From the NCBI RefSeq assembly GCF_001931675.1, contig NZ_CP014839.1, positions 2,294,001 through 2,358,000 of the forward strand: a stretch of 64,000 bases of DNA. The letters run 5' to 3'. Below the pieces are notes generated by a model that did not search any database, was not told the DNA's origin, and saw only the letters and a program-made list of their open reading frames with translations. Both the position numbers and the translations under genes were made by a program. Source of the DNA: Pandoraea thiooxydans (GTDB lineage: Bacteria; Pseudomonadota; Gammaproteobacteria; Burkholderiales; Burkholderiaceae). The stretch's first letter is position 1, and every line of letters starts with the position of its first letter. This document shows positions 34,062-40,820 of the stretch, in pieces.

Positions 34062-36935
34062 TCACAGGGTACGGGCAACCTCCGTGATTTCGAAAACTTC
34101 AAACTGATCGCCTTCCTGAATGTCGTTGAAGTTCTTCACCGACATACCGCACTCGAAGCCGGCCTTGACTTCCTTGACGTCGTCCTTGAAGCGCTTGAGC
34201 GAATCCAGTTCGCCAGTGTGGATGACCACGTTGTCGCGCAGCACACGTACCGACGACGATCGCTTGACCACGCCTTCGAGGACCATACAGCCGGCCACCG
34301 TTCCGACCTTCGGCACCTTGAACACCTGGCGCACGGACACCAGGCCTGTGATTTCTTCCTTCTTCTCCGGCGACAGCATGCCCGACATCGCGGCCTTCAC
34401 TTCATCCACGGCGTCGTAGATGATGTTGTAGTAGCGAATATCGATACCATTGGCTTCGGCCAGCTTGCGCGCAAGCGCGTCGGCACGGGTGTTGAAGCCG
34501 ATAATGACCGCCTTCGAGGCCGTGGCCAGGTTGACGTCCGACTCGCTGATACCGCCGACGGCGGCGTGCACGATCTGCACCCGAACTTCGGCGGTCGACA
34601 GCTTATTGAGAGCATGCACCAGCGCTTCCTGCGAGCCCTGCACGTCGGCCTTGACGATCAACGCCAGGGTCTGCACTTCGCCCTCGGCCATCTGGTCGAA
34701 CATGTTTTCGAGCTTGGCCGCCTGTTGCTTGGCAAGCTTCACGTCGCGGAACTTGCCCTGACGGAACAATGCGATTTCACGCGCCTTGCGCTCATCGGGC
34801 AGCACCAGCACTTCCTCGCCGGCGCCCGGCACTTCGGACAGCCCCTGGATCTCGACAGGAATCGACGGGCCCGCCTCTTTGGTGGGTTTGCCGATCTCGT
34901 CGAGCATCGCCCGCACGCGGCCGTAAGCCTGCCCGGCCAGCACCATGTCGCCGCGATGCAGCGTGCCGGACTGCACCAGAATCGTGGCGACCGGGCCCTT
35001 GCCTTTGTCCAGCTTCGCTTCAATGACGATGCCTTTGGCCGGCGCTTCGACCGGCGCCTTCAGCTCAAGCACCTCGGCCTGGAGAATGACGTTCTCCAGC
35101 AGGTCATCGATGCCTTGTCCCGTTTTGGCCGACACCGGCACGAACGGCGAATCGCCGCCGTACTCTTCCGGCACCACGCCCTCGGTGACCAGTTCCTGCT
35201 TGACGCGCTCCGGATTCGCGTCCGGCTTGTCGATTTTGTTGAGCGCCACCACAATGGGCACGCCGGCAGCCTTGGCGTGTGCAATCGCTTCCTTGGTCTG
35301 AGGCATCACGCCGTCGTCGGCCGCGACCACCAGAATCACGATATCGGTCGATTGTGCGCCACGCGCGCGCATTGCGGTAAATGCCTCGTGCCCCGGGGTA
35401 TCGAGGAACGTGACAACGCCGCGCGGCGTTTCCACGTGATAAGCGCCGATGTGTTGGGTAATGCCGCCAGCTTCGCCCGCCGCCACCTTGGCACGGCGGA
35501 TGTAATCGAGCAGCGAGGTCTTGCCATGATCGACGTGGCCCATCACCGTCACCACCGGGGGCCTCGGCAATGCCTCGGCGTCGATGTGCTCGCCACCCAG
35601 CTCGAGCGCCGTTTCCGGATCATCCAGTTTGGCGGCAATGGCTTTGTGCCCGAGTTCCTCGACCACGATCATGGCGGTTTCCTGATCGAGCACCTGATTA
35701 ATCGTGACCATCTGGCCAAGCTTCATCATCAGCTTGATCACCTCGGAAGCCTTGACCGACATCTTGTGGGCCAGGTCAGCCACGGTAATGGTTTCCGGCA
35801 CCATTACTTCACGCACAACCGGCTCGGTAGGCGCCTGGAACACTTGACGATGATCTTCCTGGGCATGTCGGCGATGGCCTTTCGGTCCGCGCCAGCCGTC
35901 ACCGACGCCACCCGACGAATCACCGCGGGTCTTGATGCTGCGTTTGCGGCTGGCGTCGTCCTTCTGCCATGTCGACGGCGCACCTGCCTGCTTGACGGGT
36001 TTCTTGCCCTTGTCAGCCGCGGCAACCGTCGTGCTGACCGTTTTTTTCTCTTCCTTCTTGTCCTCGGGCTTGGCTGCCTTGGCCGGCTTGTGAAGCGTGC
36101 CCTTGCTTTCGGTTTTGGCTGCCGGTTGCGGCTCGGGCGCCTTGAGCACTTTGCGCGGCGCATTCATCATCTCGCGAATGGCGCGCGCCTCGGACTCGGC
36201 GGCCGCACGCCGCTTGCGGATTTCATCTTCCTCGGCGCGCGCCTGCTCGGCGGCCGCGCGCGCTTGCGCCGCCTCCGCTTCGCGCGCCGCTGCAACGGCG
36301 CCTTCTTTGGCGTCGACCTGAGCGGCCTGCGTCGCGCCGCCCTCCTCGCCCTGAGCGGTTGTTTCCTGCTCGGCGGTTGCCGTCGCATGCTGGGCGACGC
36401 GCTCTGCCGCGGCAGCGGCTGCGGCGCGTTCGCGCTCGGCTTCGGCAGCAGCGGCTTCGCGGGCCTGGCGTTCCGCTTCCTCGCGGGCCAAACGCTCCTG
36501 GCGCTCCTTGAGCTCTTCCGCCTGACGCGCCAGCAGCTCGGCCTGACGCCGCGCTTCTTCTTCACGTCGAGCAAGTTCCGCGTCGCTGACCACAGGCTCG
36601 GCCGGTTGCGCTTCGGCGACCTCGATCGGAATATCGTCCCGCTTGACGAAGACGCGCTTCTTGCGGACTTCGACCTGGATGGTGCGGGCCTTACCCGAGG
36701 AATCCGCCTGTTTGATTTCGGAGGTCTGACGGCGCGTCAAAGTAATCTTTTTCTTCTCGCCGTCACCGGCGCCATGCGACCGGCGCAAATGATCCAGCAG
36801 CTGCGCCTTGTCGGCTTCAGTCAGTGAATCGTCCGCGCTGCGCTTGTCCACACCGGCGGCTTTCAATTGCTCCAGCAGCACGCCGGCCGGCATTTTCAAT
36901 TCTGCAGCAAATTGGGCTACGTTGATGCTCGCCAT
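34062..36935 (-). CDS. infB: Translation initiation factor IF-2
   Basis: 957 residues. N-terminal IF2_N domain (about 1-50), then about 270 residues rich in Ala/Glu/Arg/Lys (coiled coil and linker), a second IF2_N-like region, and the G domain with GHVDHGKT at 466-473, DTPGHEAF and [10 protein letters not shown]. Domains II-IV follow, with the fMet-tRNA-binding C-terminus [25 protein letters not shown]. The long linker varies among bacteria. It lies 78 nt after nusA; a GCAAGGA-N5-TCCTTGC hairpin sits in that gap. Confidence 0.97.
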
Positions 36936-37013: not shown

Positions 37014-38489
37014 TCACTGGAACCAATGCTCACGCGCTTTCATGATCAGCGCCTTCGCCTGCTCTTCGTCGATGGCCGTCATCTCGACCAGTTCGTCGAC
37101 GTCCAATTCAGCCAGATCGTCACGCGTCTGAATGTTGTGCTCGGCCAACTTGGCCAGCAGCTCGGTGGTCATGCCATCGAGACTCTTGAGATCGAGGGCT
37201 ACGCCTTCCACCTTCTCTTCGCTGGCGATGGCCATCGTCAGGAGCGCGTCGCGTGCGCGATTACGCAGTTCATGCACCGTATCCTCGTCGAATGCCTCGA
37301 TTTCGAGCATTTCGTTGAGTGGAACGTAGGCGATTTCCTCGAGACTCGAGAAACCTTCCTCGATGAGGATATCCGCCATTTCTTCATCGACGTCGAGGCG
37401 CTGCATGAACAGCTGGCGCAGCTCACCTTGCTCCTGGTTTTGCTTTTCTGCCGATTCGTCCGGCGTCATGATGTTGATCTGCCAGCCGGTCAACTCGCTG
37501 GCGAGACGAACGTTCTGACCGCTGCGCCCGATGGCCACAGCCAGTTCGTTTTCATCGACCACCACGTCCATGCTGTGCTTTTCTTCGTCGACCACGATCG
37601 ACTGCACCGCGGCAGGCGCCAGCGCCCCAATGACGAATTGCGCCGGATCCTCCGACCACAATACGATATCGACGTTCTCGCCGCCCAGCTCGTTACGCAC
37701 CGCCTGCACTCGCGTACCACGAATGCCGACGCAGGTACCAATGGGGTCGATACGCTTATCGTAAGCAACAACCGCTATTTTTGCACGTACGCCTGGATCA
37801 CGCGCGGCCGACTTGATTTCCAGCAGACCTTGCTCGATTTCAGGCACCTCGATCTCGAACAGCTTGATGAGGAATTCCGGCGCAGTGCGCGACAATTCGA
37901 TCTGCGGTCCGCGAGCGGTACGGTCGACTTTGACGATGTACGCACGGGCGCGGTCGCCGACGCGCAAATTTTCCTTTGGAATCAATTGATCACGGCGCAG
38001 CAGCGCCTCGACTCGGCCTGACTCGACAATCAGGTTGCCCTTGTCGATGCGCTTGACCGTGCCGGTCATGATCTTTTCGCCGCGTTCGAGAAAATCGTTC
38101 AGAATCTGCTCGCGCTCGGCATCGCGGATCCGTTGCAAAATCACCTGCTTGGCGGCCTGCGCGCCAATCCGACCGAACTCGATGGACTCGACCGGTTCTT
38201 CGATGTAATCGTCGACCTCGATGTCGGGAATCTGTTCACGCGCCTCGAACAGCAGTATCTGCCGATCCGGCTCCTGCAAGCCCGCTTCGTCGGGCACTAC
38301 CAGCCAGCGGCGGAAAGACTCGTGCTCACCGCTCTCGCGATCGATTGCCACGCGAATATCGGCATCTTCCTGATAGCGTTTCTTGGTGGCCGAGGCCAGC
38401 GCCGCTTCCAGCGCGGCGAATACGACGTCCTTATTGACGTTTTTCTCGCGCGCGAGCGCATCGACCAACAACAACACTTCGCGACTCAT
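37014..38489 (-). CDS. nusA: Transcription termination/antitermination factor NusA
   Basis: 491 residues: N-terminal RNA-polymerase-binding domain (about 1-125), S1 domain (about 135-200), KH1-KH2 (about 230-345, with [26 protein letters not shown] and [18 protein letters not shown]) and two C-terminal acidic helix-hairpin-helix repeats. The start overlaps the rimP stop by 4 nt. In E. coli NusA represses its own operon; a promoter-terminator unit upstream of rimP here could serve the same purpose. Confidence 0.97.
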
Positions 38490-38944
38490 CGTTTGCGACT
38501 CCTAAAATCAATCTGCGGCACCAGGCGCGCACGGTCAATATCCGACAGCGTAAACTCCAGCATCGCCGGGCCGTCCTTTCCTTCGAATTCCAGGTTTATT
38601 CTTTCATCCACGGGCGGATGCAGGATGCCACGAAACTGCTTACGGCCCGAGACAGGCTGGCGCAGCGTCACTGCAGCTTCACAACCCGCAAAACGAACAA
38701 AATCGGCCAGCTTGCGCAATGGCCGATCCAGCCCCGGGGAGGACACCTCCAGCCGATCGTAATCGACATTCTCCACCGTCAGCACATGCGACAATTGCCG
38801 GCTGACCTTCTCGCAATCGTCGATTCCGACTCCAGTCGGCTGATCGATAAAGACGCGCAGCAGCCCGCCCCCGGATCGTTCCAGATCGACCAACTCATAA
38901 CCTAACCCGATGACGGTCGTCTCGATCAATTCTGAAAGCTGCAA
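38486..38944 (-). CDS. rimP: Ribosome maturation factor RimP
   Basis: 152 residues, a 30S assembly factor. Features: [52 protein letters not shown] and [21 protein letters not shown]. The start is a TTG at 38944, preceded by AGGGTGAG as ribosome site; no ATG lies near. First coding gene of the nusA-infB operon. Confidence 0.94.
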
Positions 38945-39036
38945 ATTCGCTCACCCTTTGAAAATTCGCGTCAATACCCTATTTTCATCGGCTTCATCGT
39001 ATGCCGAACGCTCACTAGGTGCATTTCGGCAAAAGC

Positions 39037-39061
39037 AAAAAAAAATGGGCGGAACGCCCAT
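39037..39061 (-). terminator. Intrinsic terminator in the rluB-rimP gap
   Basis: ATGGGCG (39045-39051) pairs with CGCCCAT (39055-39061) around GAA. On the minus strand nine T follow. It would stop rluB readthrough and any transcript from the promoter at 39135-39163. Confidence 0.85.
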
Positions 39062-39128
39062 TTTTCCTCGCCTCTTTGCGCATGAGGTGCGCCCCTGGAA
39101 ATATTGCACAACGCGCAAACTAGCTTAT
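39037..39128 (-). ncRNA. Candidate attenuator leader or small RNA upstream of rimP
   Basis: Transcript of about 92 nt predicted from a strong promoter (39163-39135) to an intrinsic terminator (stem ATGGGCG/CGCCCAT with a 9-T run ending at 39037). Between them the RNA can fold: TTTGCGC near its 5' end pairs with GCGCAAA, enclosing an inner GTGC/GCAC stem; an exposed ACCUC stretch lies in the 3' side of the internal loop. No open reading frame of note is seen. rimP starts 93 nt beyond the terminator, so the unit could be a transcription attenuator for rimP-nusA-infB or an independent sRNA. I do not recognise a family from the sequence. Confidence 0.5.
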
Positions 39129-39134
39129 CTTTTG

Positions 39135-39163
39135 ATTTTATACGTTTTTGACCCAATTTGCAA
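39135..39163 (-). promoter_or_regulatory. Promoter in the rluB-rimP gap
   Basis: Minus-strand TTGCAA (39163-39158), exactly 17 nt, TAAAAT (39140-39135), in an AT-rich patch 70 nt beyond the rluB stop. No other obvious sigma-70 promoter was found closer to rimP, so it is the best candidate for the whole rimP operon. Confidence 0.6.
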
Positions 39164-39232: not shown

Positions 39233-40693
39233 CTAACCGGATCGGCCGCGACCACCCCGCCCCCGGCCGCCCCCCGGATGCCTGTTCGCGGTGTCGGCAC
39301 CGCGAGACGGCGAGTAGTTTCCCCAGGCGGCACCACCGCCGCCCCCGCGACGGGACTGACCGAAACCCGGCTCCTTACCGAAGTATCCCAGCGCAGTCTG
39401 CATCGGGTCAGGTTGTCGGCGCGGCGCGCCACTCTCGCCCGGGCGACGCTCGTCGCTACGCTGCGCGCCCGGAATTTTCATACCAACCGCGTTGAGCAAC
39501 GCCCGGACCTGTGACTCGTCCAGTTCCTCCCAACGGCCACGCCGCAACCCGTGCGGCAAAGTCAGCGGGCCATGCCGAGTCCGAATCAAGCGGCTGACCA
39601 TTTGACCGACGGCCTCGAACATTCGACGTACCTCGCGATTGCGGCCCTCGGCCAGTGCGACGTGATACCACCGGTTCGAGCCCTCGCCACCCCCGTCCTG
39701 CAAACGAAGGAAGTTTGCCGGTCCGTCCTCCAGTTCGACGCCCTTGAGCAGTTGCTGGCGCGCGCCCTCGGTCAACTCCCCCATGATCCGCACCGCATAC
39801 TCTCGCTCGATGGCATAGCGGGGGTGCATGAAGCGGTTGGCCAGATCTCCGGAGGTGGTCAGTATCAGCAGCCCCTCGGTGTTGAAGTCCAGCCGGCCGA
39901 CCGCAAGCCATTTGGCTGACTTGATCGGCGGCAATTTATCGAAAACCGACGGCCGGCCCTCGGGGTCCGCGTGACTGACGATCTCTCCGGCTGGTTTGTG
40001 ATACAGCAACACGCGTGGCGGTCGCTGAATGATTTTGCGCTTGATGAGCTTACCGTTGATGCGGACCTGATCGGTCGGCATGATGCGCTGGCCAATATGG
40101 GCGGGCTCGCCATTGACCGACACGCGCCCGGCCATGATGAGTTCTTCCATTTCGCGGCGCGAGCCCATGCCGGCATCCGCGAGCACCTTGTGCAATTTCG
40201 GCGTTTCCTCATCCGGCGAGAGCACCCGCTTGGCCGTGACCGGCTTGCGTCCCCGGCGCAGCATCGGCGCACGCACGCCGCTGCCATTATTGTCATTGTC
40301 GAACGACTCCGAGGTGACATAGGCGAAGATATTATCTTCCGCACGCTTTGCCGCACCCGGCTGGCGAGGCGCCTTGCCGCCACGCTCGCGCGCGCCGCCA
40401 TTGCCACGCCCCTTGCCGCGCCGCGCACCTGGCTGCCGTTGTTCGCCCGGTGCCTGAGCCGCGACGGGCGGCGTCGGCACGTCACCCTCATCGCCCGCAG
40501 CCGTCGAATCGCCCTCGCCTTCGCGCTTGCCTTGCCCAGCGGCACGCCGGCGCGCGATCAGACTTCGCGGACCGCGCCGCAAACCGCGGCGCGCCTGCTT
40601 GTCCTCCGCGCTCTGCGCCTCTCCAACGGCACGCTCGGATTCGCCATTGGCGTCAATCGGATTCAGTTCCTTGGACTCTTCGCTGTGCTTCAA
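39233..40693 (-). CDS. rluB: 23S rRNA pseudouridine(2605) synthase, RluB/RsuA family, with long basic tails
   Basis: About 486 residues from TTG 40693, preceded by a GAGG site; a frame to 40804 exists. The N-terminal 150 residues are charged and Arg/Gly/Gln-rich. Then come an S4 domain ([31 protein letters not shown]), the catalytic domain with [16 protein letters not shown] (catalytic Asp) and [14 protein letters not shown], and a C-terminal tail ending in a run of Arg-Gly-Gly repeats. E. coli RluB is about 290 residues, so both tails are extensions. It lies downstream of scpB in the same direction. Confidence 0.9.
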
Positions 40694-40820
40694 AACAACC
40701 TCAAAGAAAAAGAGCCGCCGCGGGCATACGCCGCGCACAGGCAACTCATGCAAATAGGCAGGCCGGCGGGGCCATTGGTGCGGCGCCCTCGTCGTCCATC
40801 GCAACTACGATCGTCCGGGT

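Follow-up and report, generated by a model that had tools for sequence, protein, structure and literature searches.

The rimP-nusA-infB operon of Pandoraea thiooxydans is preceded by a rimP-leader, the attenuator class of Naville and Gautheret 2010 (PMC2965389), and the element probably acts in cis as a transcription attenuator of the operon (with a probability of roughly 0.8). It lies in the window, i.e., the whole 64,000-nucleotide stretch of DNA that was analysed, within a genome made up of one contig of 4,464,185 bases. On the minus strand the stop codon of the upstream gene (39233) is followed in order by a promoter, the leader RNA, a terminator, 92 nt of untranslated DNA, rimP, nusA and infB. 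The upstream gene is read in the same direction (longest open reading frame 39233..40804) and is presumably an rluB-type pseudouridine synthase. The reading frame 38486..38944 starts with a TTG at 38944, and from its translation and its relatives we take it to be rimP (ribosome maturation factor), the name also given in a preliminary description of this DNA. The reading frames 37014..38489, which shares 4 bases with the end of rimP, and 34062..36935 are taken to be nusA and infB (IF2), respectively, from their protein families and from gene order.

The promoter is of the sigma-70 type and is situated at 39135..39163 within TATAAAAT, where both the sequence and a scan place TTGCAA (39163-39158) and TAAAAT (39140-39135) 17 nt apart. 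It matches nine of 12 consensus positions, and 20 of its 29 positions are invariant among 25 aligned Pandoraea leaders. Only two such sites were found in 1.5 kb, the other one on the plus strand, against 0.2 in shuffled sequence, which bears out the near-consensus minus-strand promoter proposed earlier. Transcription is predicted to start near 39128. The intrinsic terminator (39037..39070) is of the rimP-leader type, i.e., AAAUGGGCG-loop-CGCCCAUUU followed by nine U; on the minus strand it is made up of AAATGGGCG (39063-39055), a 3-nt loop, CGCCCA and nine T (39045-39037), so that the stem AUGGGC/GCCCAU precedes rimP-nusA-infB. A standard terminator scan reported none at the locus (shuffles gave a mean of 1.4), a likely reason being that the stem extends into the T tract; a separate hairpin scan of our own recovers it (row L028), and together with the sequence this upholds the claim of a strong terminator with nine T about 92 nt past the promoter.

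The preliminary description left open whether this leader is related to the rimP leaders already described, and a survey of the order to which Pandoraea belongs indicates that it is. A RimP match was found in 112 of 120 genomes drawn, and the upstream DNA of all 112, within contig limits, was searched up to 330 nt from rimP for GGGC and GCCC separated by 3-9 nt and followed by a T tract, with 20 rounds of shuffling as background. This motif precedes rimP in 100 of the 112 genomes (shuffles: mean 0.7, maximum 3 of 112). In 67 of these 100 the hairpin ends no more than 35 nt from the start codon, whose position was taken from the alignment, and this leaves too little room for an intervening promoter. 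Among the 12 genomes that fail the test, four have by eye the same stem with a longer loop (L048, L218, L227, L232) and three another hairpin (L201, L212, L231); a different stem was picked up by a generic hairpin scan in L246, and by eye no convincing hairpin was seen before rimP in L196, L239, L241 and L245. The sequence of the stem is nearly specific to rimP leaders. Across the 120 whole genomes the pattern TGGGCN3-7GCCCATTTTT occurs 100 times, spread over 93 genomes, with 88 matches directly upstream of rimP and on its strand (88 genomes) and 12 elsewhere, one of the latter being the window hairpin read backwards; a mirrored control pattern gave 5 matches.

As described in PMC2965389, the rimP-leader with its GGGc...gCCC terminator is the most ubiquitous attenuator, and its motif went undetected in other terminators. 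The window leader resembles it in having this stem and a U tract 5' of rimP-nusA-infB, and both features recur in the survey; the 92 nt from its T tract to the TTG fall within the 4-130 nt to the gene start given for the class, and it is predicted to lie downstream of the operon promoter. No antiterminator is visible in either. It differs in that Naville and Gautheret remark on no larger conserved RNA element, whereas in Pandoraea a hairpin domain of about 60 nt, conserved at the genus level, lies between the start site and the terminator. As this remark of the 2010 paper is descriptive and not a defining requirement, membership was retained, and the kinship is one with the general rimP-leader motif. 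The Rfam family RF01770 (rimP) gave no match between 36000 and 42000 of the window up to E = 5, nor any at gathering threshold in 20 relatives. We presume that its model structure represents the gammaproteobacterial form, in which terminators are found upstream of rimP. RF01770 is tabled as Gammaproteobacteria (PMC5471319); it belongs to the same gene and the gammaproteobacterial form likewise has terminators upstream of rimP (PMC2965389), but no tandem inverse terminator was seen by eye at the window locus. Similarly, the rimP 5' regulator of Streptococcus agalactiae has a terminator in the 5' UTR, although there termination takes place 31 nt after the start site and, in the account given, no upstream RNA domain is described (PMC4448216).

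Promoter placement was examined in the best 80 of a larger number of named relatives, 79 of which have the terminator (the stem is damaged in L106). Judging by their record titles, these 79 loci are mostly from Burkholderiaceae and Oxalobacteraceae, and the closest named RimP relatives are from Pandoraea (L058, 99% identity; L059, 80%). With the best consensus score in the 150 nt before the terminator as the measure and a cut-off of at least 13, a promoter was found in 76 of 79 loci, the observed score being reached by 89 of 1580 shuffles. Between terminator and rimP there was none in 77 loci, two having been dropped as too short (951 of 1540 shuffles were equal or better), and the 92 nt of the window itself (38945..39036) contain no promoter that is conserved in the relatives. 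The earlier statement that rimP has no better promoter thus extends to these relatives. In the order set a promoter of at least 13 lies within 120 nt upstream of the hairpin in 56 of 100 genomes, compared with 78 of 500 shuffles, and is lacking there in the other 44. The predicted start is no more than 15 nt before GGGC in 34 of the 56, i.e., in 34 of 100 genomes, which suggests that a common layout in the order is a promoter followed at once by the hairpin and then by rimP. In the 79 loci from the best 80 relatives the predicted start and the hairpin are 37-182 nt apart (median 58); the promoter pick is doubtful in L091 and L099, which together with L131 were left out of the group alignment. 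The bare layout, in which some 10 nt separate the predicted start from the hairpin and which is seen in roughly one third of the order genomes tested, suggests that the RNA domain was gained in Burkholderiaceae and Oxalobacteraceae, and comparing bare with domain-bearing leaders would be an obvious way to see how NusA feedback or some other signal acts on the element.

Since 76 of 79 loci have the promoter ahead of the terminator and none of 77 has one after it (best 80 relatives), the operon mRNA most likely arises by read-through. RNA polymerase would start near 39128 and make a leader of about 90 nt; most polymerases would stop at the AUGGGC/GCCCAU hairpin, and a fraction would read on to give the operon mRNA, so that the read-through fraction would set the levels of RimP, NusA and IF2. 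The likeliest controller of such a ratio between two RNAs would be NusA, which may promote stopping at hairpins of this kind and thereby limit its own synthesis. NusA-dependent termination has been studied in B. subtilis, and no paper on such termination at rimP was found in the literature searched. In E. coli NusA limits its own operon (cited within PMC2965389 and PMC6511841), and RNA-seq of the S. agalactiae rimP operon revealed short and long RNAs that share their start site, for which NusA feedback was proposed (PMC4448216). NusA control of the rimP-leader is itself only a proposal in PMC2965389, and the window leader is plausibly controlled in the same way. What speaks against an attenuator is that the terminator, with its nine U, looks strong and leaves little obvious room for strengthening by NusA; also, no antiterminator was identified by eye or from the folds. 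The 44 order genomes that lack a promoter of at least 13 before the hairpin and the 12 that fail the motif test count against it as well. A leader peptide was considered and dropped: the AUG within CCUCAUGCGCAA opens a frame that runs through the terminator, and by eye there is no shared Shine-Dalgarno sequence. In B. cenocepacia 82 5' UTRs are reported to give short transcripts, but rimP and nusA are absent from the main text of both papers (PMC5688073, PMC4603805); no rimP entry was found in the main texts of the Burkholderia RNA papers searched.

The RNA from 39128 to 39032 (minus strand) folds with -41.7 kcal/mol, whereas shuffles average -27.1 +/- 3.3; this corresponds to a z of -4.4, and none of 200 shuffles did as well. 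Of the nested stem proposed in the preliminary description, the outer part (39119-39113/39081-39075) recurs in the predicted optimum as a longer stem of nine pairs (39119-39111/39083-39075), but the inner part is UGUGC/GCGCA (39110-39106/39092-39088) and not GTGC/GCAC. Likewise, of the ACCUC said to be exposed, CCUC is unpaired but the preceding A is paired. Sequence, folding and the Pandoraea alignment point to two alternative folds of the upstream domain (39071..39128), which comprises the 5' arm (39119-39113), a first GCGCA (39092-39088), CCUC (39087-39084), a second GCGCA (39081-39077) and GAGG (39074-39071). The genus set consisted of 32 genomes including that of the window; the leader was located via Rfam family RF02420 in 24 and via rimP loci in five more, and was not taken in from G015, G017 and G029. 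The Pandoraea leaders came from 44 loci and comprised 26 distinct ones, 25 of which were aligned (23 distinct rows were counted). The one left out, from the 1.2-Mb genome G003 (L248) of the same genus, is unlike the rest: its leader RNA is very different, and its promoter and kind of terminator are kept.

In 22 of the 25 aligned leaders the predicted optimum is three tandem hairpins, and the outer stem proposed earlier is part of the optimum in the window, L021 and L059 only. Among seven leaders for which the two folds were compared, the nested one is favoured by 10.1 (window), 10.2 (L021) and 3.8 kcal/mol (L059) and disfavoured by 1.3 (L001), 7.7 (L004), 13.9 (L016) and 10.7 kcal/mol (L024), i.e., the favoured fold differs between the lineage of the window and other Pandoraea species. 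Over the 23 distinct rows the stems as first proposed are kept in 84.5% (outer) and 63.0% (inner) of cells and those of the nested optimum in 84.1% and 58.3%; the nested fold is therefore not the conserved one. For whole structures 95.4% of pair cells are kept with three hairpins, 87.2% with the structure first proposed and 84.7% with the nested optimum. Covariation within Pandoraea is weak, with one pair changed on both sides per structure tested, and the covariation score, which is inflated by related sequences, was reached by 7 of 500 shuffles for three hairpins, 430 of 500 for the nested structure first proposed and 441 of 500 for the nested optimum. What is conserved in Pandoraea leaders is the promoter and the terminator. 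The consensus of 40 leaders from the wider Burkholderia group contains no more than the terminator plus a short stem upstream of it, and that of 18 Oxalobacteraceae-type leaders the terminator alone; between aligned genera the leader differs strongly while promoter and terminator persist.

The same locus carries Rfam family RF02420 (Bp1_162; Bp1_Cand612_SIPHT), which goes back to an sRNA predicted in B. pseudomallei, with RT-PCR primed by oligo(dT), a procedure that, as described, does not settle the strand (PMC3521395). When Rfam was searched as had been advised, this family matched the window at 39038-39129 with 34.3 bits on the plus strand and 23.1 on the minus strand, both below the gathering score of 50, and 24 of the 32 genomes of the genus gave matches (E <= 0.001) that likewise fall short of the threshold. 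Above threshold it was found in seven of 20 loci searched (L061, L067, L070, L093, L097, L101, L103), which are those of Burkholderia, Paraburkholderia, Caballeronia and Mycetohabitans among the 20; in each of them the match lies immediately before rimP, on the opposite strand. An RNA made from the plus strand, as the family is drawn, would accord with the better plus-strand score, with a promoter-like TTGAAA-16-TATTTT at 38958-38985 and with the five T that also stand behind the hairpin in that direction, but we consider it very unlikely. The opposite strand has a promoter of at least 13 in only 1 of 79 loci (best 80 relatives; 898 of 1580 shuffles equal or better), the consensus begins with an A run complementary to the U tract of the leader, and the plus-strand RNA is less stable relative to shuffles (z -2.3 against -4.4). 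Given the lack of a promoter signal on that strand, RF02420 is probably the Burkholderia rimP leader recorded on the wrong strand, as a mirror image, judging by the strand read in the seven loci. In that case strand and function of the entry need checking, and a widespread, little-tested control element would turn out to be catalogued in this group under a different name.

The existence of an sRNA entry here also bears on the choice between attenuator and sRNA with which the preliminary description ended. A trans-acting small RNA gene might stand upstream of rimP by chance and pair with other mRNAs, e.g., through CCUC, which is unpaired in the optimum of the window species and belongs to a stretch, GCGCACCUCAUGCGCAA, that is nearly invariant among the 25 Pandoraea leaders (16 of 17 positions, only the first base varying between G in 20 and A in 5), as against 4 of 27 positions in the preceding stem-loop. 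On the other hand 22 of the 25 leaders have CCUC paired, as part of hairpin 2, and the leader changes strongly between genera that keep promoter and terminator. As no other rimP promoter was found in the best 80 relatives, even such an sRNA would arise by stopping transcription of the operon. With the order promoter-terminator-rimP in 76 of 79 of these loci, a separate sRNA gene is less likely than a cis attenuator and on the whole improbable. Still more so is an ordinary terminator of rluB with no regulatory role, a reading suggested by the co-directional rluB and by the some 70 nt between its stop codon and the promoter, in which no terminator is seen by eye. The hairpin lies downstream of the only recognisable promoter of the operon, its stem is nearly specific to rimP leaders, and it stays with rimP when the upstream sequence changes, as only 7 of 94 upstream regions (400-600 nt; order genomes) encode an RluB-like protein on the strand of rimP, a count that may be low because such regions cover only the variable end of that gene. 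It is tempting to speculate, although we hold it to be improbable, that in Pandoraea an RNA switch with two states stands before the ancestral rimP terminator. GCGCA occurs twice around CCUCAU (39092-39077, minus strand), and both copies can pair with the same 5' arm, GCGY; one pairing may permit a CCUCAU/AUGAGG hairpin which the other would unfold. All 25 leaders share the whole second copy and the CGCA of the first without change, although the second is just a hairpin loop in 22 of them; the nearly invariant GCGCACCUCAUGCGCAA takes in the loop of hairpin 2, whose conservation is not explained by pairing in that hairpin. If such a switch exists, a protein or ribosome on the CCUC hairpin could bias termination, or the released RNA could alternatively act in trans.

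Some minor observations concern individual leaders. The promoter-like sequence on the plus strand of the window, which faces the terminator from the other side, is by eye absent from most other Pandoraea. In Cupriavidus-type leaders (L107, L112-L115, L118) GATGGGC or a close variant is present twice ahead of a single GCCCAT, after a CAUCCU... hairpin; the doubled motif was considered as an antiterminator and dropped, since the alternative hairpin also precedes the U tract. A Herminiimonas rimP leader (L130:1811-1945) has its ATGGGC hairpin region directly preceded by an imperfect duplicate.
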